From assembly GCA_017556805.1 (NCBI GenBank), contig JAFYMC010000022.1:1-64000 (forward strand): a DNA stretch of 64,000 nt. Direction: 5' to 3'. The notes beneath the pieces were generated by a model, which saw only the letters and a list, made by a program, of their open reading frames with translations, was not told the DNA's origin and ran no database searches. The position numbers were made by a program, and so were the translations under genes. The DNA is from Lachnospiraceae bacterium (lineage in GTDB: Bacteria > Bacillota > Clostridia > Lachnospirales > Lachnospiraceae). Shown one piece after another: positions 1-10,289 of this stretch (the first letter of the stretch is position 1; each line of letters starts with the position of its first letter).

Positions 1-173
1 CTTCCGGTTCCGGCGTTGTTGTCGGGTCTTCCGGCTTCGGCGTTGTCGTCGGGTCTTCCGGCGTCGGGGTTGTCGTCGGCTCTTCCGGTTCCGGCGTTGT
101 CGTCGGCTCTTCCGGTTCCGGCGTTGTCGTCGGCTCTTCCGGTTCCGGCGTTGTCGTCGGCTCTTCCGGGGTC
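1..173 (-). repeat. 27-bp tandem repeat coding PTTTPEPEE units
   Basis: About six direct copies of a 27-bp unit are visible (core GGTTCCGGCGTTGTCGTCGG on the plus strand). The leftmost copies diverge (PEDPTTTPK, PEDPTTTPT). The array continues past the window start. Such arrays vary in copy number by slippage without breaking the frame. Confidence 0.9.
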
Positions 174-3100
174 GGATCTTCCTCTTCCGGGAAGTTAATC
201 AAAATTGGTTTACCTTCCTCTGCCTGCACCATTTTCCAGATGCCGTCTTTGTATTCGGTATACTCGTTACCGTCTGCATCCTTGAAAACAGCACCGGTAA
301 TGGTACAACCATCCGCATTAATCGGACAATTATAAATTTCGCCCCATACTTTTACTTTTGCATTCGGAGTAAATGTTATGGAATTCTGCGGATTAGAACC
401 GCCGGCAACCTTCTGTACATTAATATCACTATCTACTATTACCGTACCCTGTTCAAATATAAGATTTCCATCGGATACATAAATACCCGTACTACAATTT
501 TCAATTTCTAAAGTTCCTGTACCCGTAATCTTTACATACAAAGACTCAGAAAGACCTTCACGTATATAAAAACCATGACTATAGCCGGAAATAACATTTC
601 TTGTTCCATCTGCCAACACAATGGTAGTTCCATAAGGAACTTGAATTGCATTATAACCATCTTCTGCTTCAATGTTCACACCATTTAATGTTAAAGTATG
701 TGTTTCTCCATCCCAGGTCCAGTTCGGTCCATGCTTATCCACGTTGGTCACGTACGTATTAAAATCAATGTAAATTTCTAAAATTTCCTGAGGTTCTGCC
801 TTAATCTCGATGGTTGCATCCTTTGTAAATCCATAGAGATCAATTCTCACATAACTGCTGTCAATATCTATGTAATCCAATCTTGCACCATCTAATTTTA
901 TGCTGTTCCTTATCTCTTCGTACATATCAGAAGTAAACTCATAACCTTCCGGTGCAGAAATATAAATAGAAACCAAACTTCCTGCTGTAAGACCCGTTTC
1001 TTTAGAGATATAAACAGCGCCTTCCGGATAATCTGCCTTATTTGTCATGGTAAGAGTAAAGCCTGCCGGTTCTTCCAGTGCAGCAGGTGCAATTGTAATT
1101 GTTACATTATCTTGAATAACTCCTACCTCACACATGAACAAACCAGCATCACCCAAAGGAGTAGCACTCATTGTAGAATCTGCTAATTTCAATGTAAAAT
1201 TAGTATCACTAACTACAATTAAAGTACTTCCTTTTTGTATTTCAATTTCTAGTCCTTCGAGTACTATAGGTTCAGTAGTGCCATCACTATATCCCAAAAT
1301 TCCTTCAAAGTTTGATTTGACAAATGTTACAGTAGCGGTTTCAGCTGGTTCTTCGTCATCATCTTCCGCTTCCCCATGTAACGGCAATACCGCTACTTCC
1401 TGTATATGCCCCTTTGCATTCAATTTTATGATTTCTATATAATCATAGTCATCGATTGGTCTACCATAAAATTCATCCTCAAGATAATACGGTTCCGGTG
1501 CATAATCGGCACCCCAAATCATAGCCAGCTCATGCTCATACTCATCTGTATCACATCTCAAATAATCATCGAGTCTTGCCTGAATCGCCTCTGTAACCGT
1601 CTGTCCTTCACTAGCCTGACCAAGGTAGAAGCCCCATCTGTATCCCGGTTCTTTTTCGATTCCGGATACCTTATATACATAATAATTGTTGTCGCTTTCT
1701 GCAAGAGATACCTGTGCTGAAATATTCTCAATCGGTCCTACCGGAGGAGCTTGGAATTCCGCCGTCTCTAACGGATAACATACCGTCAGAAACTCCGAAT
1801 AATTATCCATCACTGTAAAATTCTCGTCTCCGTTTACCGTTACATCTTCACTAAACAGGCAAAATCTATCAGCAAACAATCCGACTATCCATACATAGTT
1901 TTCGCCGTCCTGAATTACATAACCGCCATCATCAAGCATTCTAATGGTTCCGTCACTCTCCACTTTACCTACCATGCCCATATCAATCATATACTTGGCA
2001 TCTTCAGGTACAGTAAAGAATTCCCAATAAGCAGCCTCCGATGCCATGTCACCCGGTACAATACTCGGAATCACGGATGCAACATTGATTGTTACGCTGT
2101 CAATGGTCTCAACTTCTCTGTCCGCTATAGTTAACGGATAATACACATAAATGAAAGACTCTGAATAAGTATCTGTATACGTTTTCAGGCCTGCTCCGGT
2201 AACTGTTACATCATCAGCAAACGAAAGATTTCCGTTCTTTGATTGAATAACCATTACATAAGCATATAAATCATAAGTAGAAAATTCATGTCCATTTGAT
2301 AATGGATTACTATAAGGATTATAACTTCCGTCCGATTTTAGCTTAAGGAACGCAACATCTCCTATTTCATATTCCGCATCGTCAGCAACAGAAAAGTATC
2401 CTGAATAATCATTCTCACCTACCGTGGTTCCTTCCTGAACACTCGGAATATTTCCTGCCACATTTATTGTTACGTTCTCAATTTTCGGCATTGTATATTC
2501 AAATACAAGCGAATCGGTAGTCACACCATTGACATCCAGCTGTGCCACATACTCTCCGAGCTCCGTAGGCGCCGTGTCCGTCCAGTTATACGGATAATTT
2601 AAGCTATACTGCAACTTTGGCTCAACCAATCCGGCTTTATCCCAATTGTTCTTCTCGATTGTTGCTCCGCTGTATGGTGTTCCTTCACTTACTCTTCCTT
2701 GATTTTTCACACTAAAGGTACAGGAAATCGCGGAATATTGAGGATAATCCTGAAAATTTGCTTCATAATAAGGACAACAAGATACATTACAAGCAGCATA
2801 AATATTATAAAGGTCATTACTATAACTACTTCTCTTATAATCCCAGTTATGATTCGTATGACAAGCAAAAAATCCCGCACCGGTTATTGCATAGTATCTT
2901 TCGTCGTAACTATTTGTTTCATCATAAATAAAAATCGCAATTGATTCATTTTCCGACAAATACATGGTTGTTTCTTCTTGATAAAACGCATAACCATCTT
3001 GATTATCAAGCACAAGATTGCTATCCAAATTAGAACCACTCGTTACATCCTGAATAAGTTTACCAATTCGTCTGTTAACTACCAGATCGTAGTGATACTC

Positions 3101-3316
3101 AGGCATATCTGCATAACGGGAAAGCGCATACTCCTGTCCTCCCTGTGGCGTAATCGTAACATAATTTCCATTCACCTGAATCCAACTACTGATATCCGCA
3201 ACGACACCGGAGTCGGCCTTTGCTTCCTTTGCACTTCCCGCAAAGAGCGACAACACCATCGTCAAAACAAGAAGCAAACTCAGTATTCGTTTTTTGTTTC
3301 CGTTTCCTTTGTTCAT
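1..3316 (-). CDS. Large secreted surface protein with Pro/Thr/Glu-rich repeat stalk (3' end outside window)
   Basis: The frame is open from an ATG at 3316 to the window edge, giving at least 1,105 residues. GGAGG lies 8 nt upstream of this ATG; another ATG 6 nt further up is too close to it. The N-terminus is a clear signal peptide (MNKGNGNKKR, hydrophobic LLLVLTMVLSLFAG, then AKADSG). Residues about 280-400 and 405-525 look like two copies of one domain, each ending near a VTINVA motif. About 858-962 carries a W(T/S)WD...LTLNGV stretch common in Clostridia surface proteins. Codons near position 1-173 encode tandem PTTTPEPEE units, typical of a wall-spanning stalk. A sorting motif or wall-binding domain should lie beyond the edge. 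The gene follows the lone receiver gene by 70 bp and probably shares its promoter. The adhesin role is inferred; no binding domain is certain. Confidence 0.85.
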   Translation of the reverse strand, partial: MNKGNGNKKRILSLLLVLTMVLSLFAGSAKEAKADSGVVADISSWIQVNGNYVTITPQGGQEYALSRYADMPEYHYDLVVNRRIGKLIQDVTSGSNLDSNLVLDNQDGYAFYQEETTMYLSENESIAIFIYDETNSYDERYYAITGAGFFACHTNHNWDYKRSSYSNDLYNIYAACNVSCCPYYEANFQDYPQYSAISCTFSVKNQGRVSEGTPYSGATIEKNNWDKAGLVEPKLQYSLNYPYNWTDTAPTELGEYVAQLDVNGVTTDSLVFEYTMPKIENVTINVAGNIPSVQEGTTVGENDYSGYFSVADDAEYEIGDVAFLKLKSDGSYNPYSNPLSNGHEFSTYDLYAYVMVIQSKNGNLSFADDVTVTGAGLKTYTDTYSESFIYVYYPLTIADREVETIDSVTINVASVIPSIVPGDMASEAAYWEFFTVPEDAKYMIDMGMVGKVESDGTIRMLDDGGYVIQDGENYVWIVGLFADRFCLFSEDVTVNGDENFTVMDNYSEFLTVCYPLETAEFQAPPVGPIENISAQVSLAESDNNYYVYKVSGIEKEPGYRWGFYLGQASEGQTVTEAIQARLDDYLRCDTDEYEHELAMIWGADYAPEPYYLEDEFYGRPIDDYDYIEIIKLNAKGHIQEVAVLPLHGEAEDDDEEPAETATVTFVKSNFEGILGYSDGTTEPIVLEGLEIEIQKGSTLIVVSDTNFTLKLADSTMSATPLGDAGLFMCEVGVIQDNVTITIAPAALEEPAGFTLTMTNKADYPEGAVYISKETGLTAGSLVSIYISAPEGYEFTSDMYEEIRNSIKLDGARLDYIDIDSSYVRIDLYGFTKDATIEIKAEPQEILEIYIDFNTYVTNVDKHGPNWTWDGETHTLTLNGVNIEAEDGYNAIQVPYGTTIVLADGTRNVISGYSHGFYIREGLSESLYVKITGTGTLEIENCSTGIYVSDGNLIFEQGTVIVDSDINVQKVAGGSNPQNSITFTPNAKVKVWGEIYNCPINADGCTITGAVFKDADGNEYTEYKDGIWKMVQAEEGKPILINFPEEEDPTPEEPTTTPEPEEPTTTPEPEEPTTTPEPEEPTTTPTPEDPTTTPKPEDPTTTPEPE

Positions 3317-3386: not shown

Positions 3387-3773
3387 CTATCCGCTGGCCA
3401 CCCCTTCCATCACCGGATACCGGAGATTCCGAAGTTCTTCTTCTACCCGGTGCCTTGTGACAGGCTTTGTAATATACCCGCTGGCTCTGACCTGTAATAC
3501 ATCCTTGGCAAATTCCTTTTCCGAACAAACGGTGGCAAATATAATATTTGCCCGTGGGAACTGCTCCCGGATACGTTCCGCCAGAGTCATGCCTCCGTTG
3601 GCGTACAGGGCAATTTCACAAAACAGTACGTCACAGCCGGACCGTTCCGCAAAGTCATAAGCCTCTGCTGCCTTTGTAAAGCCGGATACATTCGCCGTCG
3701 GCAATACGGATTGCACTTCTTTTACCAGGCCCTCCAAGAGTACCGGATGGTCATCCACACAGATTACCTGCAA
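3387..3773 (-). CDS. Stand-alone response-regulator receiver domain with Asp-to-Glu phospho-acceptor
   Basis: A 128-residue protein consisting only of a CheY-like receiver. It starts at TTG 3773, preceded by AAGGAGG at good spacing. Visible receiver features are the acidic pair (VDDHP, residues 7-8) and the conserved Lys in ITKPVT. The phospho-acceptor site reads DVLFCEIAL where the neighbouring regulator at 7544-8317 reads DVAFLDISM, so Asp is replaced by Glu (codon GAA). Glu at this place often mimics phosphorylation or blocks it. No output domain follows the receiver. The gene sits between a repeat-bearing promoter and the surface-protein gene, so it may act by protein-protein contact on that system. 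It could also be the remnant of a longer regulator, since its full-length homologue in this window has a DNA-binding half. Confidence 0.85.
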   Translation of the reverse strand: MQVICVDDHPVLLEGLVKEVQSVLPTANVSGFTKAAEAYDFAERSGCDVLFCEIALYANGGMTLAERIREQFPRANIIFATVCSEKEFAKDVLQVRASGYITKPVTRHRVEEELRNLRYPVMEGVASG

Positions 3774-3814: not shown

Positions 3815-3849
3815 AGTATAACAAATCATATCTTACAAATTTCTTACAA
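3815..3849 (-). promoter_or_regulatory. Promoter with 19-bp direct-repeat operator for receiver/surface-protein unit
   Basis: On the minus strand a -10 box TATACT (3820-3815) lies 10 nt downstream of the direct repeat TTGTAAGAAATTTGTAAGA (3849-3831), whose TTGTAAGA half-sites are 11 bp apart. The -35 position falls inside the repeat and has no good consensus (GAAATT), as expected for an activator-dependent promoter. The identical 19 bp occurs at 10192-10210. Confidence 0.75.
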
Positions 3850-3894
3850 ATCCCCCTTCTGTTAAAAGTTTTTTATAAATTTTTTCTACAAATC

Positions 3895-3923
3895 AAAAAA
3901 AGGCCGCCTTTTTAGGCGACCTT
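3895..3923 (-). terminator. Rho-independent terminator after the lipoprotein gene
   Basis: The minus strand folds AGGTCGCC/GGCGGCCT (one G-T pair) followed by a run of seven T. It ends the kinase-regulator-cyclase-lipoprotein operon and separates it from the downstream receiver promoter. Confidence 0.85.
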
Positions 3924-3935
3924 TCCTATCGTTTA

Positions 3936-5870
3936 CTATTCGTTTCTTTCTACATAAGGGCCTTCCCAGCGGGTCTGTTCCGGCCATCCGGTGGTATCAA
4001 AGGAATCCCTGATACAGGCATTGTAATACTCCATTTTGTCTATCAGCTTCGGACGTATCTGAAAACTGATACGGTGGTCACTCATTGCCTCCTCCATGAG
4101 AGTTGCCCGATCCTCCGTCGGATAGCTCATTCCGTAATTGGATATAAAGTAGGCATAGTATTCCTCGTTCCGAAACTGCTCCGGTATATCTTCCACCAAA
4201 TAGGACTCTGCATAAGTGAAGTCCTCCGGACAGTACGATATCCAGGTTTCTTCCCCGAACAGTGCTCCCGTTCTGCGGCCGGCATCCCACAATAGCTTTT
4301 TGTCTATTATATGGGAAATCTCGTGGTAATAGGTGGAAACATCGGTCACCGGCACATCCGCCACAATCAGATAATAGGTTCCGCACTCCTGTGCAAATGC
4401 CGCCACACCGCCTTCCTTCGGCCTTGTTCCCGTGTAGCGCAGACAGTTTACCAATTCAATCTGCACCCGCTCGATTGTGCCGTAACAAAGCTGTTCAAAA
4501 AATCCGGCCGGATACCCCGTAAGCGCCGTTTCCAAACGATCCAACGCCTCCGTAAGCATTTCCGTATCCGTCATTTCTTCCGCTTCATAGGAAGTATAGG
4601 TCAGCTGACACTCATCCGCAATCCGGATATCCACACCGAACCGCTCCGACAGTTCTTTCGCCCGCCGGTATAGCGACGCATCCGCCGTCACTCCTCCCGG
4701 CCGTTCCTCTCTGTACTCTTCCGTAAAAAGCGGTGCTCCCTCACACGCTGCCGCCGTATCCCAAAACATAAGCCGGGAACCGCCATCCTCAAACACTACG
4801 GTAAAGAAGTATCCCTCCCACAGCGGGCTGTATACCGGTTCGGAACAAAAGTATCCTTCGGTCTCCGTCAGCTCACAAACCGACAAAAAACTTCCGTCAC
4901 TGCCGTACAAGGTCCGCATATTCGGACCCCCCACCAGAATAGCCCCATCTTCGGTCAGACTTGCCCCGTAGATTGCTTCAAAGGAATTTATTTTATAAGC
5001 ATCCTCTGCCTTTTGATACAGATAATAGGTGCCCCACCTATCGCTGCCATGAAACAACCATATCTCGTTTTCCCGGTATGCCTCCTCCACCGTTCTGTGC
5101 CGATACGGCAGTCCGGAAAACGCTCCGGTTTCCAAATCCAACATCACACTCTTTGTTTTCTGCGACGTCAAATCATCATATGTAAGTACCAGCTCATTCC
5201 CGGATTTCCCCTTGACAATCACCTCTGTCGCCCGCTCCAGTACCGCCTCTTTCTCCCCGGTGGCAAGCTCTACCCGGTACACTCCGTTCGCCCAACTGAC
5301 AACATACATGGCAGTAAAGTCCGGCGTAACGTACCAGTTCTCCCAATCCGCTTCGCAGGTATATTCCTTACAAAGCTCCAACGCCTCCGAAAGAATGAAA
5401 ACCTTCCCGGCTGCGGAATCACACACCGCAATTCGGTCCTGTTCCACCGCCACCGTAACATAACCCTCACATTCGATTTGCTCCGTTGCCAGAAGCGCCC
5501 CGTTTCTTAGGGAAAATACGTTCAGCGTCAGCATTGTTTCTTCCTCTTCCCACTGCGGGTCCGAAGTAACCAAAAGCTTCTCTCCCATCAAATAACACTT
5601 GGGGCGGTTCATCGTCTCCAGTTCCTTCATCGGAACCGAATACACATTACCGCTTACCCCTGCCGGGATACGGTTGTCAAACAACGTAAGTGCAGGAAGC
5701 GGTGTAGCCGTAATTTCCGGCTCCTGCGGTTTCTCCGCGACCGATTCCGACACCACCGGGGTCTTTGTCGGCAGGCCGCCCTCTTTGGTATCCTGCTTAC
5801 AACCGGCCCCAGCCAATAGTAATCCCATTAAAACCGCGATGCCGATTTTTCTGTACTTCTTGCTATACAT
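3936..5870 (-). CDS. Lipoprotein with repeat-rich N-terminal half and C-terminal HExxH (zincin-like) domain
   Basis: 644 residues. The N-terminus is a short charged stretch, a hydrophobic segment and a Cys in LLLAGAGC, fitting a lipoprotein signal although the -3 residue is atypical. A Thr/Pro linker follows. The next ~350 residues are beta-rich with repeated acidic/aromatic patterns, compatible with a beta-propeller (not proven). The C-terminal part contains HEISH at residues 516-520, the zinc-metallopeptidase signature, with more acidic residues downstream (EDFTYAESYLVEDIPEQF, EEAMSDH) that could supply the third ligand. The start overlaps the end of the cyclase gene by 8 bp, so the two are translationally coupled. 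Being anchored outside the membrane beside a repeat-stalk surface protein, it might process or release surface proteins; that is inference. Confidence 0.8.
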   Translation of the reverse strand: MYSKKYRKIGIAVLMGLLLAGAGCKQDTKEGGLPTKTPVVSESVAEKPQEPEITATPLPALTLFDNRIPAGVSGNVYSVPMKELETMNRPKCYLMGEKLLVTSDPQWEEEETMLTLNVFSLRNGALLATEQIECEGYVTVAVEQDRIAVCDSAAGKVFILSEALELCKEYTCEADWENWYVTPDFTAMYVVSWANGVYRVELATGEKEAVLERATEVIVKGKSGNELVLTYDDLTSQKTKSVMLDLETGAFSGLPYRHRTVEEAYRENEIWLFHGSDRWGTYYLYQKAEDAYKINSFEAIYGASLTEDGAILVGGPNMRTLYGSDGSFLSVCELTETEGYFCSEPVYSPLWEGYFFTVVFEDGGSRLMFWDTAAACEGAPLFTEEYREERPGGVTADASLYRRAKELSERFGVDIRIADECQLTYTSYEAEEMTDTEMLTEALDRLETALTGYPAGFFEQLCYGTIERVQIELVNCLRYTGTRPKEGGVAAFAQECGTYYLIVADVPVTDVSTYYHEISHIIDKKLLWDAGRRTGALFGEETWISYCPEDFTYAESYLVEDIPEQFRNEEYYAYFISNYGMSYPTEDRATLMEEAMSDHRISFQIRPKLIDKMEYYNACIRDSFDTTGWPEQTRWEGPYVERNE

Positions 5871-7512
5871 CCGTTTCTTTCCCGCTTTCCATATACTTCA
5901 TCCGTATTTTCTTCTCATACATCCGTGCGTCTGCATTACGGAACACATCCTCATAGCCGCTATCCTGCTCCGGATTGTATATTGCAAACCCGATTGCCGC
6001 AGACACCATCGAACCTTTGGATGAAATGCTCTCCATCTGTTCAAACATCCGTTGCAGTTCCATACATTCTTCGTATGACTTATCCTGCAACAATACCACA
6101 AATTCATCACCGCCGATGCGATATACATTCTCTCCGCCAAAGCATCTGATAATTTGTTTCGCTGCCGTTATAATTAACTCGTTTCCGTATTCATGACCGT
6201 ATGTATCATTTGCGATTTTCAGATTATTTACATCAATTACAAATACCGCCGGTACAGCCGTCCCGTTTTCCAAAAACTCCCTGATACGATATACCTCACT
6301 TAAATATGCCGTATTGTTCTTTACCCCGGTCAATTTATCGTAATACGCCAGGTTGTTAATATAATCGATACGTGCCTGTAATTGCTTCGCCGTAGACTTA
6401 ACGCTTTCCGTCAAGGTCCCGATTTCGTCCTTCGTTTTACATTCCAATACAATATCCAGGTTTCCTTCGGCAATTTCTTTTGCGGCAGTATTCAGTTCTC
6501 TCAGCGGACGCACTATGTTTCGTGTTACCACCAGAGTAATGCACAGCATCCCTATAATGCTTAACCCTACAATGGTCACCATCCGCCCCAGTAAATCATC
6601 CGCATTACGGAACACTTCCTCTACCGGTGCAGTTACCGCCAAATACATGCCGTTCGACAATTTCTGAAACATCACCTGGCAGTCCGCATCCCGATACCGA
6701 TAAGAATATAGCTTCTTATCCTTCGGTAAGGACGACGCATTTAATTCCTCTAGGTCTCCCCCCAATGAACTTACCTGTACCCCGCTTTCGTGATGCCTGC
6801 TGTAAAGTATTTCGCATGCATCATTTGTTATAAATGCATTTCCCGTCTCATAGGTTCTGATACTGTCAACTTCTTTGATGATGTATTCAAAGTCAATGTC
6901 CATTCCCACAACTCCCAGCAGATCTCCGTCTTTATATACCGGAATCACATAGGAAATCATGTAAATATCCAGATTTTTATTATAATACGGCTCCATCCAG
7001 ACCGATTTTCCCTCTTCTATGGGAATATAATACCATCCCACATGTTCGATATCATCCTTGTCATATAGTGACAAATCCGTCGGTTCCAGACTGTCAAACT
7101 CGCCGCTCTCCTTGTTGTAAAGCATCAAAAAGCCCGACTTCGGTAATGTATATTCACAATTAAAGCGAACATACACCGCCACCGCCCCCTGGGTTTCGTT
7201 TACTATGGTTTCGCCCAATGCTTTCGTCTCTCTCGTATAGGCCAGCAAGTAGTCTTCGTCTTCTGCCAGGCGCTTCACACTATCCACATTGTCCCTTGCG
7301 AATTCGGCCAATATCTCTACCGACTGTTCTACTCTTTCAAAGACCGTGTTTAGCTCTTCCGTGTTTTGTCCTGCGGTCAGTGTCATGATCGAAACGCACT
7401 CCTCATTCAATGCTTTTCGAAAGCTGACACCGCTGATTCCCAACACAAAGACAGACGGCACTATAATCCCGATTAAAATCAAACATAGAATTTTCGTCTG
7501 TATTGATTTCAT
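5863..7512 (-). CDS. Membrane diguanylate cyclase (Cache-HAMP-GGDEF)
   Basis: 549 residues. A first membrane segment (about 7-29) is followed by a large extracellular region resembling a double Cache sensor (WYYIPIEEGKSVWMEPYYNKNLDIYMISY and GVVGMDIDFEYI are typical). A second membrane segment (about 313-332) leads to a HAMP domain (about 333-385) and a GGDEF domain with intact GGDEF at 467-471 and the LTGVKNNTAY entry motif. No RxxD product-inhibition site is seen just before GGDEF. It makes cyclic di-GMP from two GTP in response to an unknown external ligand. The gene begins 32 bp after the response regulator gene and ends inside the lipoprotein gene, so cyclase output is tied to the same two-component operon. 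Confidence 0.92.
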   Translation of the reverse strand: MKSIQTKILCLILIGIIVPSVFVLGISGVSFRKALNEECVSIMTLTAGQNTEELNTVFERVEQSVEILAEFARDNVDSVKRLAEDEDYLLAYTRETKALGETIVNETQGAVAVYVRFNCEYTLPKSGFLMLYNKESGEFDSLEPTDLSLYDKDDIEHVGWYYIPIEEGKSVWMEPYYNKNLDIYMISYVIPVYKDGDLLGVVGMDIDFEYIIKEVDSIRTYETGNAFITNDACEILYSRHHESGVQVSSLGGDLEELNASSLPKDKKLYSYRYRDADCQVMFQKLSNGMYLAVTAPVEEVFRNADDLLGRMVTIVGLSIIGMLCITLVVTRNIVRPLRELNTAAKEIAEGNLDIVLECKTKDEIGTLTESVKSTAKQLQARIDYINNLAYYDKLTGVKNNTAYLSEVYRIREFLENGTAVPAVFVIDVNNLKIANDTYGHEYGNELIITAAKQIIRCFGGENVYRIGGDEFVVLLQDKSYEECMELQRMFEQMESISSKGSMVSAAIGFAIYNPEQDSGYEDVFRNADARMYEKKIRMKYMESGKETDV

Positions 7513-7543
7513 CCTATCATCCTCTCATTTCATCCTTCGTTTC

Positions 7544-8317
7544 CTAATGATTCTCCAACAATCCGCAGGTGCCCTCTGCCCAACTGTATTGTGTCATATA
7601 TTCCCCGAAAAACTCCGGCTTTCCGTTTTTTAGGAAGCTGTAATAATCACAATCAATACGTTCCGCATCCACACTGTAGGAAGTGCCTCGTTTTACCAGA
7701 ATACCTTCGGCGCCCACTTCTTTTAATGTGAATTTTAAATCATTCATCAGCTGATACAAATAGTTTCTGTTTTTCGCATCATCCGTATCATCCTCCCACA
7801 ACACAGCGCAGATTTCTTTCGTGGTTACGCCAGCACCGTTCCTGTCTATCAGATAGGCAAACAGTTCCTTCGTCTTCGGGCGCTTAAATGCAAGCGGTTC
7901 TCTGTTGCGAAAAACATCAAAGTTTCCGAAACATTTTACGGTTAACAACCGTTCCTTTGCCTTTTGCCCCTTAATATGGTCCAGTTCTTTTTGTACCGCC
8001 TCTGCCGTGATAGGCTTCATAAGATATCCTGCCACATGAATCCGAAAGGCATCCACCGCATATTCGGAATAGCCGGTGCAAAAAATCACCTTACAATCCG
8101 GTTGCAGCTCCTGAATCTTTTCCGCCAATACGATACCACCCATACCACGCATGCTGATATCAAGAAAGGCAACATCTACCGTATTTTCTTCTACCCACTG
8201 TAATGCTTCCGAACAAGAGCCGAACTCATACACCTGTTCAATATCCTCCGACTCCCGAACCGCCTTCTGCAACGCAGCCAACATCGGTCTTTCATCATCC
8301 ACCGCTATAGCTATCAT
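7544..8317 (-). CDS. Response regulator: receiver plus winged-helix (SARP/OmpR-like) DNA-binding domain
   Basis: 257 residues. The receiver (1-120) has DDE at 7-9, phospho-acceptor Asp in VAFLDISM and Lys in LMKPIT. Residues about 128-230 resemble the winged-helix of SARP/OmpR regulators (KCFGNFDVF...LAFKRPKTKELFAYLIDRNG...ICAVLW). No full bacterial transcriptional activation domain follows. AGGAGG lies 7 nt before ATG 8317, which overlaps the kinase stop (ATGA). Regulators of this fold bind direct repeats, and two identical repeats with 11-bp spacing lie at the promoters at 10192-10210 and 3831-3849. It is therefore the prime candidate to control its own operon and the surface-protein unit. 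Confidence 0.9.
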   Translation of the reverse strand: MIAIAVDDERPMLAALQKAVRESEDIEQVYEFGSCSEALQWVEENTVDVAFLDISMRGMGGIVLAEKIQELQPDCKVIFCTGYSEYAVDAFRIHVAGYLMKPITAEAVQKELDHIKGQKAKERLLTVKCFGNFDVFRNREPLAFKRPKTKELFAYLIDRNGAGVTTKEICAVLWEDDTDDAKNRNYLYQLMNDLKFTLKEVGAEGILVKRGTSYSVDAERIDCDYYSFLKNGKPEFFGEYMTQYSWAEGTCGLLENH

Positions 8318-10113
8318 TTCACTTCCTCCTTCGGTATGGTAATCACCGCTGTCGATCCTTTCCCCGGCGTACTAATAATGACAAGCGTACCGTTACACAT
8401 GGCATCTATACGTGCTCTGATATTCCGAATTCCCACATGAGGCTGTCCGTTCGCAAATACACTGTCTTCAAACCCAATGCCGTCATCCGTAACCTCCACA
8501 CAGTAAGCATCCTTCGTTTCGTAGGTGGAAATTCTTACCGTTCCTCCGGACTCCAGGCCCATCAGACCATGCTTTATGGCATTCTCTACCAGCGGCTGTA
8601 CCGACAGTGCCGGCACCAGAAAATCTTCTTCTCTGATATCATACTCGATTGTAATATCCGGAAATCTCACTTGTTCAATCCCCACATAATGCTTTACGTG
8701 TTCGAGTTCCTGTGTAATACGTATCGGTGCGCTGTTATCCAGCTCCGTAAAATTCCCTCGCAAATACAGCGAAAACTCATGTACCAGGTTGGCTGCCTTT
8801 TCCGGCTCCTCGTAACAGAATTGCTCAATGGTTCCCAACGTATTGTAAATAAAGTGCGGCTTAATCTGGCTCAGCATAGTCGCAATCCGCATTTCCGTCA
8901 ACTCTTCTTCCAGCCGCTTTGCATGTACCGACGCATGGTGGTTTAAGATAATCGCCTTTGCGCCTGTCACAAAATAAAAGAGAGAAAACAGAACAAATGT
9001 TATTTTGCTGCAAATCCCCTGATAATAGCCGGTGTTTCCGAGCCCCGTAAAATCAAGCAGAATCGAGCCAAGCAACAGAATATACGCAACCGACACAACA
9101 TTTCTTTTCTTTTTATCCGCTATCATGTCTTTTATGCAGTACACTGCCAAAACCGGACAAAGAAGCCACTGGGACACTCCCCAGAAAAATTGGGTATCAT
9201 ACAACAACAGCACATCGCACAGGGAAAGTACAAGTAATACCGCATTTACCCCGCAGGATATCCCTAAAAGCACCGAAACACGCTTTTTATAACGCTCGCT
9301 CAGCGCATCCTTTATAATAATTCCCAGATAATAGACCGCCAGCATCATAAAAATCTGACGTCCGTAAGTCCTTACTACTGCCTGCTCCGTCGTTGATATC
9401 AGGTAAACGGTATCCATCATAATATAGCCACCGGTAAGACCGCTCAACAATCCGAATTTTATCAACAGACCGCTGATATTGCTTTTTAACAACACCGATG
9501 CCAGTGCTGCACCCGCCAGCACAAAACCGATTAGCACAAATGCGTTTCCCAGCATCTGAAAGGGCCGCACATACGGCTTCAGAAAGCTCTCCATAATGTC
9601 CGAATCGTTTGCGGAAACATAAAGGGTATCCAAAAACTGCCGGTAAGCGTCCCGGTTTCCGAATCCGTGAGGATTGCTTAAACGAAACTCCACCAAATCC
9701 TCCGTTCCTATGCCGTCACAAAAGAAAAACATCCAGTCTTTTCCGCAAAAAGCAGAATGTAGCTCGGCTCCGTACTCCTTTAGCTCTTCCCGGATATCCA
9801 TTGCCAGCAATTCTCCGTTCACATACATTCTGGCCCCGATGTGATTACGAAAGAAATTCAATCGTGCCCCGGGATAAATTTCCTCGCGAAAATGTCCCCG
9901 TATCAAAAGGTCTCCGTCCATAGCAGATATTGTGTCCGCCTCCGTAAGCGGCTTCCAATGTTCTCCGTCCCAGCTGTATTCTCCGTCAAACGTTAGTTTT
10001 AACGGAAGTCCCATCATTGCCTGATGATTATCAAAAAAAGCCGGCAACATGCAAATCACAGCCAACACTAATGGCAACACAAATCCGATTATGGTCCATA
10101 CTCGTTTCTTCAT
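8314..10113 (-). CDS. LytS/YehU-type sensor histidine kinase with 7-TM sensor
   Basis: 599 residues from ATG 10113 (AAGGAG 8 nt upstream; an in-frame GTG at 10122 overlaps that site). After an N-terminal membrane segment comes an extracellular domain (about 30-180) with a jelly-roll look (FDGEYSWDGEHWKPLTE), as in 7TMR-DISM receptors. Seven membrane segments follow (about 190-390). The kinase core carries QIKPHFIYNTL, the His motif of the LytS family, and an ATPase domain with NAIKHGL and DDGIGF. It should phosphorylate the regulator encoded directly downstream (4-bp overlap). The ligand is unknown; the DISM-like extracellular domain suggests a small sugar or similar molecule, which is inference. 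Confidence 0.9.
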   Translation of the reverse strand: MKKRVWTIIGFVLPLVLAVICMLPAFFDNHQAMMGLPLKLTFDGEYSWDGEHWKPLTEADTISAMDGDLLIRGHFREEIYPGARLNFFRNHIGARMYVNGELLAMDIREELKEYGAELHSAFCGKDWMFFFCDGIGTEDLVEFRLSNPHGFGNRDAYRQFLDTLYVSANDSDIMESFLKPYVRPFQMLGNAFVLIGFVLAGAALASVLLKSNISGLLIKFGLLSGLTGGYIMMDTVYLISTTEQAVVRTYGRQIFMMLAVYYLGIIIKDALSERYKKRVSVLLGISCGVNAVLLVLSLCDVLLLYDTQFFWGVSQWLLCPVLAVYCIKDMIADKKKRNVVSVAYILLLGSILLDFTGLGNTGYYQGICSKITFVLFSLFYFVTGAKAIILNHHASVHAKRLEEELTEMRIATMLSQIKPHFIYNTLGTIEQFCYEEPEKAANLVHEFSLYLRGNFTELDNSAPIRITQELEHVKHYVGIEQVRFPDITIEYDIREEDFLVPALSVQPLVENAIKHGLMGLESGGTVRISTYETKDAYCVEVTDDGIGFEDSVFANGQPHVGIRNIRARIDAMCNGTLVIISTPGKGSTAVITIPKEEVK

Positions 10114-10176
10114 CTTTCGCACTCCTTATACTTTTCTAATACCATAGTACTTTTATTTTAGCCACTCTAACATTTC

Positions 10177-10210
10177 ATTATATCATAACGTTCTTACAAA
10201 TTTCTTACAA
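10177..10210 (-). promoter_or_regulatory. Promoter with 19-bp direct-repeat operator for the kinase operon
   Basis: On the minus strand TATAAT (10182-10177) lies 9 nt downstream of TTGTAAGAAATTTGTAAGA (10210-10192). The -35 position (AGAAAT, 17-bp spacer) is covered by the repeat. The repeat is identical to the one at 3831-3849, and the geometry differs by only 1 bp. Confidence 0.78.
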
Positions 10211-10260: not shown

Positions 10261-10289
10261 ATAAAAGAGGCCGTCTTTCGACGACCTCG
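10261..10289 (-). terminator. Rho-independent terminator after pheT
   Basis: The minus strand folds GAGGTCGTC/GACGGCCTC around a GAAA loop, followed by TTTTAT. It ends the pheST transcript before the divergent context of the kinase promoter. Confidence 0.85.

Follow-up and report, generated by a model that had tools for sequence, protein, structure and literature searches.

A direct-repeat operator candidate shared by two promoters in a Lachnospiraceae bacterium recurs beside relatives of a REC-SARP-like response regulator

We analysed a stretch of 64,000 nucleotides from a Lachnospiraceae bacterium (GenBank assembly GCA_017556805.1, contig JAFYMC010000022.1, positions 1 to 64,000; hereafter the window) in which a 19-base-pair candidate operator precedes two minus-strand transcription units. 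The sequence, TCTTACAAATTTCTTACAA, occurs exactly at positions 3831–3849 (copy 1) and 10192–10210 (copy 2), and reads TTGTAAGAAATTTGTAAGA on the minus strand, where it consists of a direct repeat with a spacing of 11 base pairs. Copy 2 lies upstream of a kinase operon, and copy 1 upstream of a unit encoding a lone receiver and a surface protein. The original prediction had put the repeat 9–10 nucleotides upstream of a minus-strand –10 box, and the measured gaps are 10 nucleotides at copy 1 and 9 at copy 2. The –10 box of copy 1 is TATACT (3815–3820, minus strand), which is preceded by TGT and begins 8 nucleotides past the second 11-base-pair repeat. That of copy 2 is TATAAT (10177–10182, minus strand), which is preceded by TGA and has no good –35 box, so that a TGn element stands before the –10 at both sites. 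Ahead of each operator is a terminator-like hairpin that belongs to the unit before, at 3927–3896 on the minus strand (after the lipoprotein gene described below) and at 10288–10267; nine such hairpins were found in the region, compared with 5.5 (standard deviation 2.3) in shuffled sequence.

All genes of the two units are on the minus strand, and their order is as originally predicted. The unit behind copy 2 begins with a sensor histidine kinase of 602 amino acids (8314–10122) carrying His_kinase and HATPase_c domains. It has an N-terminal hydrophobic segment, a region of about 160 residues and six further hydrophobic segments (seven in all). The kinase frame opens at GTG; judged by eye, the better ribosome site belongs to an ATG at 10113. 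The kinase gene is followed by that of a response regulator of 257 amino acids (7544–8317), which consists of a receiver (Asp53), a winged helix of the SARP type (Streptomyces antibiotic regulatory protein) and a short C-terminal helical tail. The third gene (5863–7512) encodes 549 amino acids with matches to Cache, HAMP and GGDEF domains. Its GGDEF domain scores 85.4 bits against a cut-off of 23.8 and retains the signature (RIGGDEF in the translation), and by family membership the protein is a predicted diguanylate cyclase. The last gene (3936–5870) encodes a predicted lipoprotein-like protein of 644 amino acids with an HExxH motif. Because these four genes overlap or are separated by short gaps, they are likely to form a single operon. 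Behind copy 1 are a lone receiver of 128 amino acids with a TTG start (3387–3773), in which glutamate replaces the phospho-acceptor aspartate, and, after a gap of 70 nucleotides, a secreted or surface protein (2–3316). The latter begins at a start codon at 3316 with a hydrophobic, signal-like segment, contains repeats rich in glutamate, proline and threonine (E/P/T), and matches Cthe_2159 marginally (26.0 bits against a cut-off of 25.8). The window starts at the contig end, so the gene is cut at position 1 and its C-terminus is not visible. Positions 1–180, exactly at that end, are tandem coding repeats of the proline/glutamate/threonine type, and the contig end is likely an assembly break in a repeat.

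The two copies are the only matches to the 19-mer in the window at up to three mismatches, as the original prediction of just two promoters implies; shuffled windows contain 0.04 matches on average, and none of 100 contained two. In the whole genome (2,897,592 bases in 37 contigs, with a stated completeness of 86%) they are the only matches at up to two mismatches, and a third mismatch adds three sites, compared with two for a reversed-pattern control. The promoter pattern TTGTNA-N5-TTGTNA-N10..13-TANNNT finds exactly the two window sites and no control hits in this genome. Identical short words, rich in AT and separated by 6 kb, might suggest a recent duplication or a coincidence without shared regulation. 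However, the bases flanking the two 19-mers differ from each other, and this explanation is also contradicted by the conservation in other genomes described below; we consider it extremely improbable. Chance and assembly duplication as the source of the copies are ruled out by the mismatch scans, shuffles, pattern control and differing flanks. No copy of the 19-mer at up to one mismatch was found in nine genus mates (72–97% complete), and the system is therefore not apparently a core feature of the genus.

To place the repeat in a wider context, 84,980 species genomes were scanned with an alignment of the regulator and one peptide pattern from its C-terminal tail, and the best 80 of at least 587 confirmed stretches were taken. 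Among these, loci L041–L092 encode regulators 51–67% identical to that of the window, and loci L093–L120 more distant ones. The downstream count takes in 51 of the 52 close loci (L046 was left out because its contig ends there). A pattern TGTNA-N6-TGTNA-N10..13-TANNNT is present on the same strand within 350 nucleotides 3' of the regulator stop codon in 41 of these 51 loci. On the reverse strand it is found in none of the 51, and 50 shuffles gave a mean of 0.02 and a maximum of 1. One carrier of a related regulator and operator is a cultured organism, Ruminococcus bromii ATCC 27255 (L083). Elsewhere in the regulator loci the same pattern is rare (16 hits, or 0.012 per kb and strand). This comparison of sequences confirms the 19-mer as a conserved predicted operator beside close relatives of the regulator. 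The objection that the repeat is simply frequent in the genome and unrelated to these genes fails on the same recurrence and on the count of two copies in the window genome.

Spacing and promoter features were compared across 43 sites, namely those of the 41 relatives and the two of the window. In 41 of the 43 the –10 box is at a distance of 29 nucleotides from the repeat, which places it 8 nucleotides past the second 11-mer; in window copy 2 and L055 the distance is 28 nucleotides (7 past the second 11-mer). TGn precedes the –10 box in 32 of the 43 sites. The best –35 box at 16–18 nucleotides from the –10 box matches the consensus at 0–2 of six bases in 41 sites and at three in the other two, in keeping with the earlier description of a poor –35 covered by the operator. 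Promoters activated by SARPs are described as having direct repeats spaced by 11 base pairs, with the 3' repeat 8 base pairs from the –10 box and overlapping a poor –35 box (PMC10936776, PMC5930380, PMC10972967). The 41 sites with the fixed distance follow this rule, and the expectation of an activator-like layout with 11-base-pair half-sites and one operator type at both promoters held up.

The same position could also suit a regulator acting as a repressor or dual switch, since part of the –35 region is covered by the site and a repressor might bind there too. In addition, a consensus scan at copy 2 returns a weak promoter, TTGTAA-17 nt-TATGAT (9 of 12 bases), in which the first half-site serves as the –35 box; such hits are common in that region (16 found, compared with 11.0 and a standard deviation of 3.0 in shuffles). 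However, the poor –35 boxes, the fixed spacing and the frequent TGn mark promoters that would need help, which resemble SARP promoters (PMC10936776), and we consider repression or dual control quite improbable.

The regulator itself combines features of two groups. Its receiver is clear (Response_reg, 80.6 bits against a cut-off of 30.2), as in OmpR/PhoB regulators, but Trans_reg_C, the DNA-binding domain of that group, scores below its cut-off (20.3 against 26.2 bits). Trans_reg_C is matched at an E-value of 0.1 or better by 36 of the 43 members of the regulator family alignment. No LytTR domain was found in the regulator, for which Response_reg and the sub-threshold Trans_reg_C are the only matches at an E-value of 0.05. 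In a fold search with the full-length model the receiver dominated the structure-aligned list, and the DNA-binding part was therefore modelled alone. By comparison of predicted structures, this part is closer to the SARP activators EmbR and AfsR than to OmpR/PhoB regulators; the winged helix, which is of the SARP subtype of OmpR-like winged helices, and the first helical part can be aligned with SARPs across the full length of the modelled domain. The last helix (245–255) is almost immediately followed by the end of the protein at residue 257, and none of the 16 Pfam families to which the 43 scanned family members gave matches is BTAD, the bacterial transcriptional activation domain. Lacking a complete BTAD, the protein would work like a SARP without counting as a full one, and the model identifies it as a REC-SARP-like response regulator.

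We also compared the recognition helix with the operator in the 43 regulators that have a readable operator (41 of L041–L092, L096 and the window). Residue 188 is tyrosine in six of them, all with G at the eighth base of the second half-site, and G is never found otherwise. Arginine occupies this position in 31 regulators (C in 26, T in five) and histidine in six (C in two, T in four). The sister loci L042 (histidine, C) and L043 (tyrosine, G) differ in both the residue and the base, and three changes are required for each trait in a tree from which the recognition-helix columns were left out. Residue 188 aligns by eye to R87 of AfsR, a backbone contact next to the base-contacting T88.

A different OmpR/PhoB regulator, for example one resembling VanR, PhoP or CovR, might instead bind the repeats and have the kinase/regulator pair merely as one target. 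OmpR/PhoB regulators are indeed able to bind 11-base-pair direct repeats, as reported for C. difficile RR_1586 (PMC6222199), and the Trans_reg_C score of the window regulator is below cut-off. However, the operator adjoins the regulator gene in the 41 loci despite differing downstream genes, one of its bases co-varies with the recognition helix of the window-type regulator, and the genome has only two sites. We consider such an outside regulator unlikely. The sites, their spacing, their conservation beside relatives of the regulator, the predicted fold and the co-variation of residue and base are observed features, and from them we think it probable that the REC-SARP regulator at 7544–8317 has the 19-mer as its operator and would activate the receiver/surface-protein unit as well as its own operon. 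The originally proposed link between the operators and this regulator is thus upheld by the recurrence and the co-variation, with binding itself the step that we infer.

Several observations weigh against this assignment. Ten of the 51 close loci lack a downstream operator as defined by TGTNA-N6-TGTNA, and only one of the 28 more distant loci L093–L120 has one. The site is usually 3' of the regulator gene rather than before the kinase. Among 43 pre-kinase windows three contain an operator, and only those of L048 and L062 point towards the kinase, that of L054 being divergent; L054 and L062 both belong to the ten loci with no downstream site. Window copy 2 departs from the common spacing and overlaps the weak consensus promoter noted above. 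Only two supported independent pairs underlie the residue–base co-variation, and although both are concordant this is not significant. The 80 loci are the best matches obtained through one peptide pattern, and are thus related rather than independent; many are metagenome bins, some from oddly named organisms, with crude gene calls (longest open frames). Summed over 25 genomes of relatives, picked for carrying regulator loci, the operator pattern has 77 hits compared with 27 for a reversed control, and some sites away from the regulator are therefore chance. Finally, a search for 11-base-pair repeats before a –10 box irrespective of their letters finds such repeats downstream of only five of the 28 more distant regulators (two of 28 on the reverse strand; shuffles 0.07).

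The same letter-independent search finds downstream repeats in 32 of the 51 close loci (one on the reverse strand; shuffles 0.12) and beside six of 21 Lachnospiraceae relatives (none on the reverse strand; shuffles 0.05). Upstream, they are present in none of 52 loci in L041–L092, two of 28 in L093–L120 and two of 22 in Lachnospiraceae (shuffles 0.03, 0.07 and 0.00, respectively). Outside L041–L092 the half-sites are mostly unlike those of the window. The window genome also encodes a paralogous regulator, L033 (contig C30:80262–81026), followed by TTTGTCCAATAATTGTTA before TATAAT. By eye, this sequence and the TATAAT are nearly unchanged in seven of nine genus mates (L011, L013–L016, L018 and L037), and the L033-type regulator appears to form, with an operator of its own, a distinct conserved switch. 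Together with TTTGTCCAATAATTGTTA, the letter-independent repeats beside other regulators suggest that each regulator would read its adjacent site, with weak numbers for the distant ones.

Part of the genes behind operators in the relatives was chosen and submitted to Pfam or NCBIfam. GGDEF proteins are the first or an early gene in L060, L087 and L092 (by likeness to that of the window) and in L067 and L090 (by Pfam). STAS proteins are found in L048 (by Pfam) and in L052 and L060 (by clustering). Surface proteins include ones with SLH/5'-nucleotidase domains or the List_Bact repeat, and two proteins, in L070 and L076, have LPXTG-like ends. Further first or early genes encode an acyltransferase, a signal peptidase and a pilin-like protein. 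The operator of L056 is followed in turn by genes for a glutamate-substituted receiver, a SipW-like signal peptidase and a SipW-dependent-type protein. At an E-value of 1e-6 the genes called at the other regulator loci include no relative of the surface protein of the window.

For sites distant from the regulator, eight stretches around the strongest-looking sites were inspected, and the resulting targets are therefore a chosen sample. In genomes G244, G253 and G237, operators away from the regulator lie upstream of an NHLP-type bacteriocin export system. Both ABC proteins of L173 score above NCBIfam cut-offs, whereas an HlyD-like protein and small leader-like peptides score below them; the export systems of L174 and L177 were assigned by likeness to L173. 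In L173 and L174, which are on contigs other than that of the regulator, there are in addition small leader-like peptides and an enzyme of radical-SAM-like type (below family cut-offs). The more distant regulator L101 is in a locus whose remaining genes match the NHLP export systems of L173 and L174. Giant surface proteins are encoded downstream of operators in L179 and L180. At L178:6099–6468 an operator lies upstream of a conjugation gene of an integrative and conjugative element (pilin-like, Mbov_0395 family, above cut-off), as if conjugative transfer were under the same switch. The predicted targets thus have a common theme of envelope, matrix and signalling, yet are diverse.

Nine lone receivers are encoded directly behind an operator (window, L042, L043, L056, L057, L061, L089, L179 and L005; L179 and L056 are the same genome), and in all nine glutamate occupies the position of the phospho-acceptor aspartate of the regulator. 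The window receiver therefore stands apart from canonical single-domain receivers of the CheY/Spo0F type, which have that aspartate. The original prediction of a single receiver behind copy 1 was right, but not as an ordinary one. The gene following the glutamate-substituted receiver begins with a signal- or lipoprotein-like segment in six of eight readable cases (window, L005, L057, L061, L089 and L179). The other two are a signal peptidase in L056 and an unrelated-looking enzyme 500 nucleotides away in L042; in L043 the contig ends after the receiver and the next gene is not readable. Altogether 20 lone-receiver frames, less seven duplicate views, leave 13, of which ten have glutamate, one alanine (L004) and two aspartate. 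L116 (glutamate) and L004 are beside regulators without the operator pattern, and the two with aspartate (L099 and L101) are on the strand opposite the regulator and so not in the operator position. Glutamate can mimic phospho-aspartate in some receivers, which makes it plausible that the receiver is a phosphorylation-independent partner of the regulator.

The HExxH lipoprotein fared differently. The original prediction cast it as a putative processing enzyme of the surface protein, a role that now lacks support. Among the genes called at the other regulator loci, neither it nor the surface protein has relatives at an E-value of 1e-6; for the lipoprotein this covers the 80 loci, whose flanks are at most 10 kb and often shorter, and on this count, within those flanks, it was rejected as a part of the conserved system. 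Homologues are sporadic, occurring in 20 of 200 genomes of the bacterial family, the window genome included. The loci of 19 relatives (L122–L140) were taken and 18 aligned; HExxH is present in all 18 and a downstream EDRA in 16. This little-described HExxH/EDRA family (3936–5870 and L122–L140) looks like a real metalloprotein family, without a tie to surface-protein processing. Overall, the shared operator, the regulator link and the co-control of the original interpretation stand, and the processing role and the ordinary receiver do not. The predicted common control of the GGDEF cyclase and the receiver/surface-protein unit is likewise supported.

Response regulators with a receiver, winged helix-turn-helix and BTAD (REC-wHTH-BTAD) are filed as COG3947, whose members share a receiver and a SARP-type winged helix with the window regulator. 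In the open-licence literature searched, no operator or regulon for COG3947 regulators was found, and the matches listed there describe neither this operator nor any REC-SARP regulon in Clostridia, in keeping with the earlier suggestion of a possibly undescribed system. The winged helix and the promoter layout are shared with SARP activators (Streptomyces AfsR, DnrI and ActII-ORF4, and M. tuberculosis EmbR). In contrast to these, the window-type DNA-binding domain stands on the C-terminal side of a receiver and is encoded next to a membrane kinase, and the transcriptional-activation (BTA) domain has shrunk to a short tail; the hosts are mostly Clostridia, and the predicted targets concern surface and signalling rather than antibiotic clusters. 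RR_1586 of C. difficile resembles the window regulator as a winged-helix response regulator with an 11-base-pair direct repeat; it is an OmpR/PhoB regulator with the head-to-tail box DRTTAAGNWWW present twice (PMC6222199). CmrRST of C. difficile is likewise a clostridial regulatory system with surface-related outputs, but its two regulators, which affect chaining, colony form and motility, are of the OmpR family; the available part of PMC12548384 mentions neither a glutamate-substituted receiver nor a window-type operator.

We infer a mechanism in which the membrane kinase would sense a signal and phosphorylate the neighbouring regulator. Two regulator monomers would then bind side by side on the two 11-base-pair repeats, standing in for the poor –35 box, and recruit RNA polymerase to the TGn/–10 element. 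At copy 2 this would turn on the kinase-regulator-cyclase-lipoprotein operon, a case of positive autoregulation, and at copy 1 the glutamate-substituted receiver and the surface protein. The cyclic di-GMP output may serve surface attachment or matrix. More tentatively, Clostridia might harbour insulated kinase/REC-SARP switches as a large family whose members each read an adjacent 11-base-pair repeat through a changing recognition helix. A glutamate-locked pseudo-receiver derived from the regulator's own receiver might be an early product that feeds back (for example through mixed dimers), with surface, matrix, cyclic di-GMP and bacteriocin-export genes turned on as a self-limiting or self-sustaining programme; we hold this broader scheme to be possible but doubtful.

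SARP activation is known mainly from antibiotic control in Streptomyces, and here the same promoter logic recurs in Clostridia of the gut and rumen, where it appears to be governed by two-component systems, in loci that are mostly metagenome bins. The glutamate-substituted receiver and the range of predicted targets are unexpected in this REC-SARP two-component system, and the recurrence of the former raises the question of how such switches are tuned. As the operator is simple and readable, regulons would be predictable from sequence, and the naturally diverged regulator/operator pairs could be used for studies of specificity. The findings point to one layer of control common to surface and matrix proteins, cyclic di-GMP and peptide export, and these loci suggest a little-studied switch that would activate a signalling enzyme along with surface proteins.

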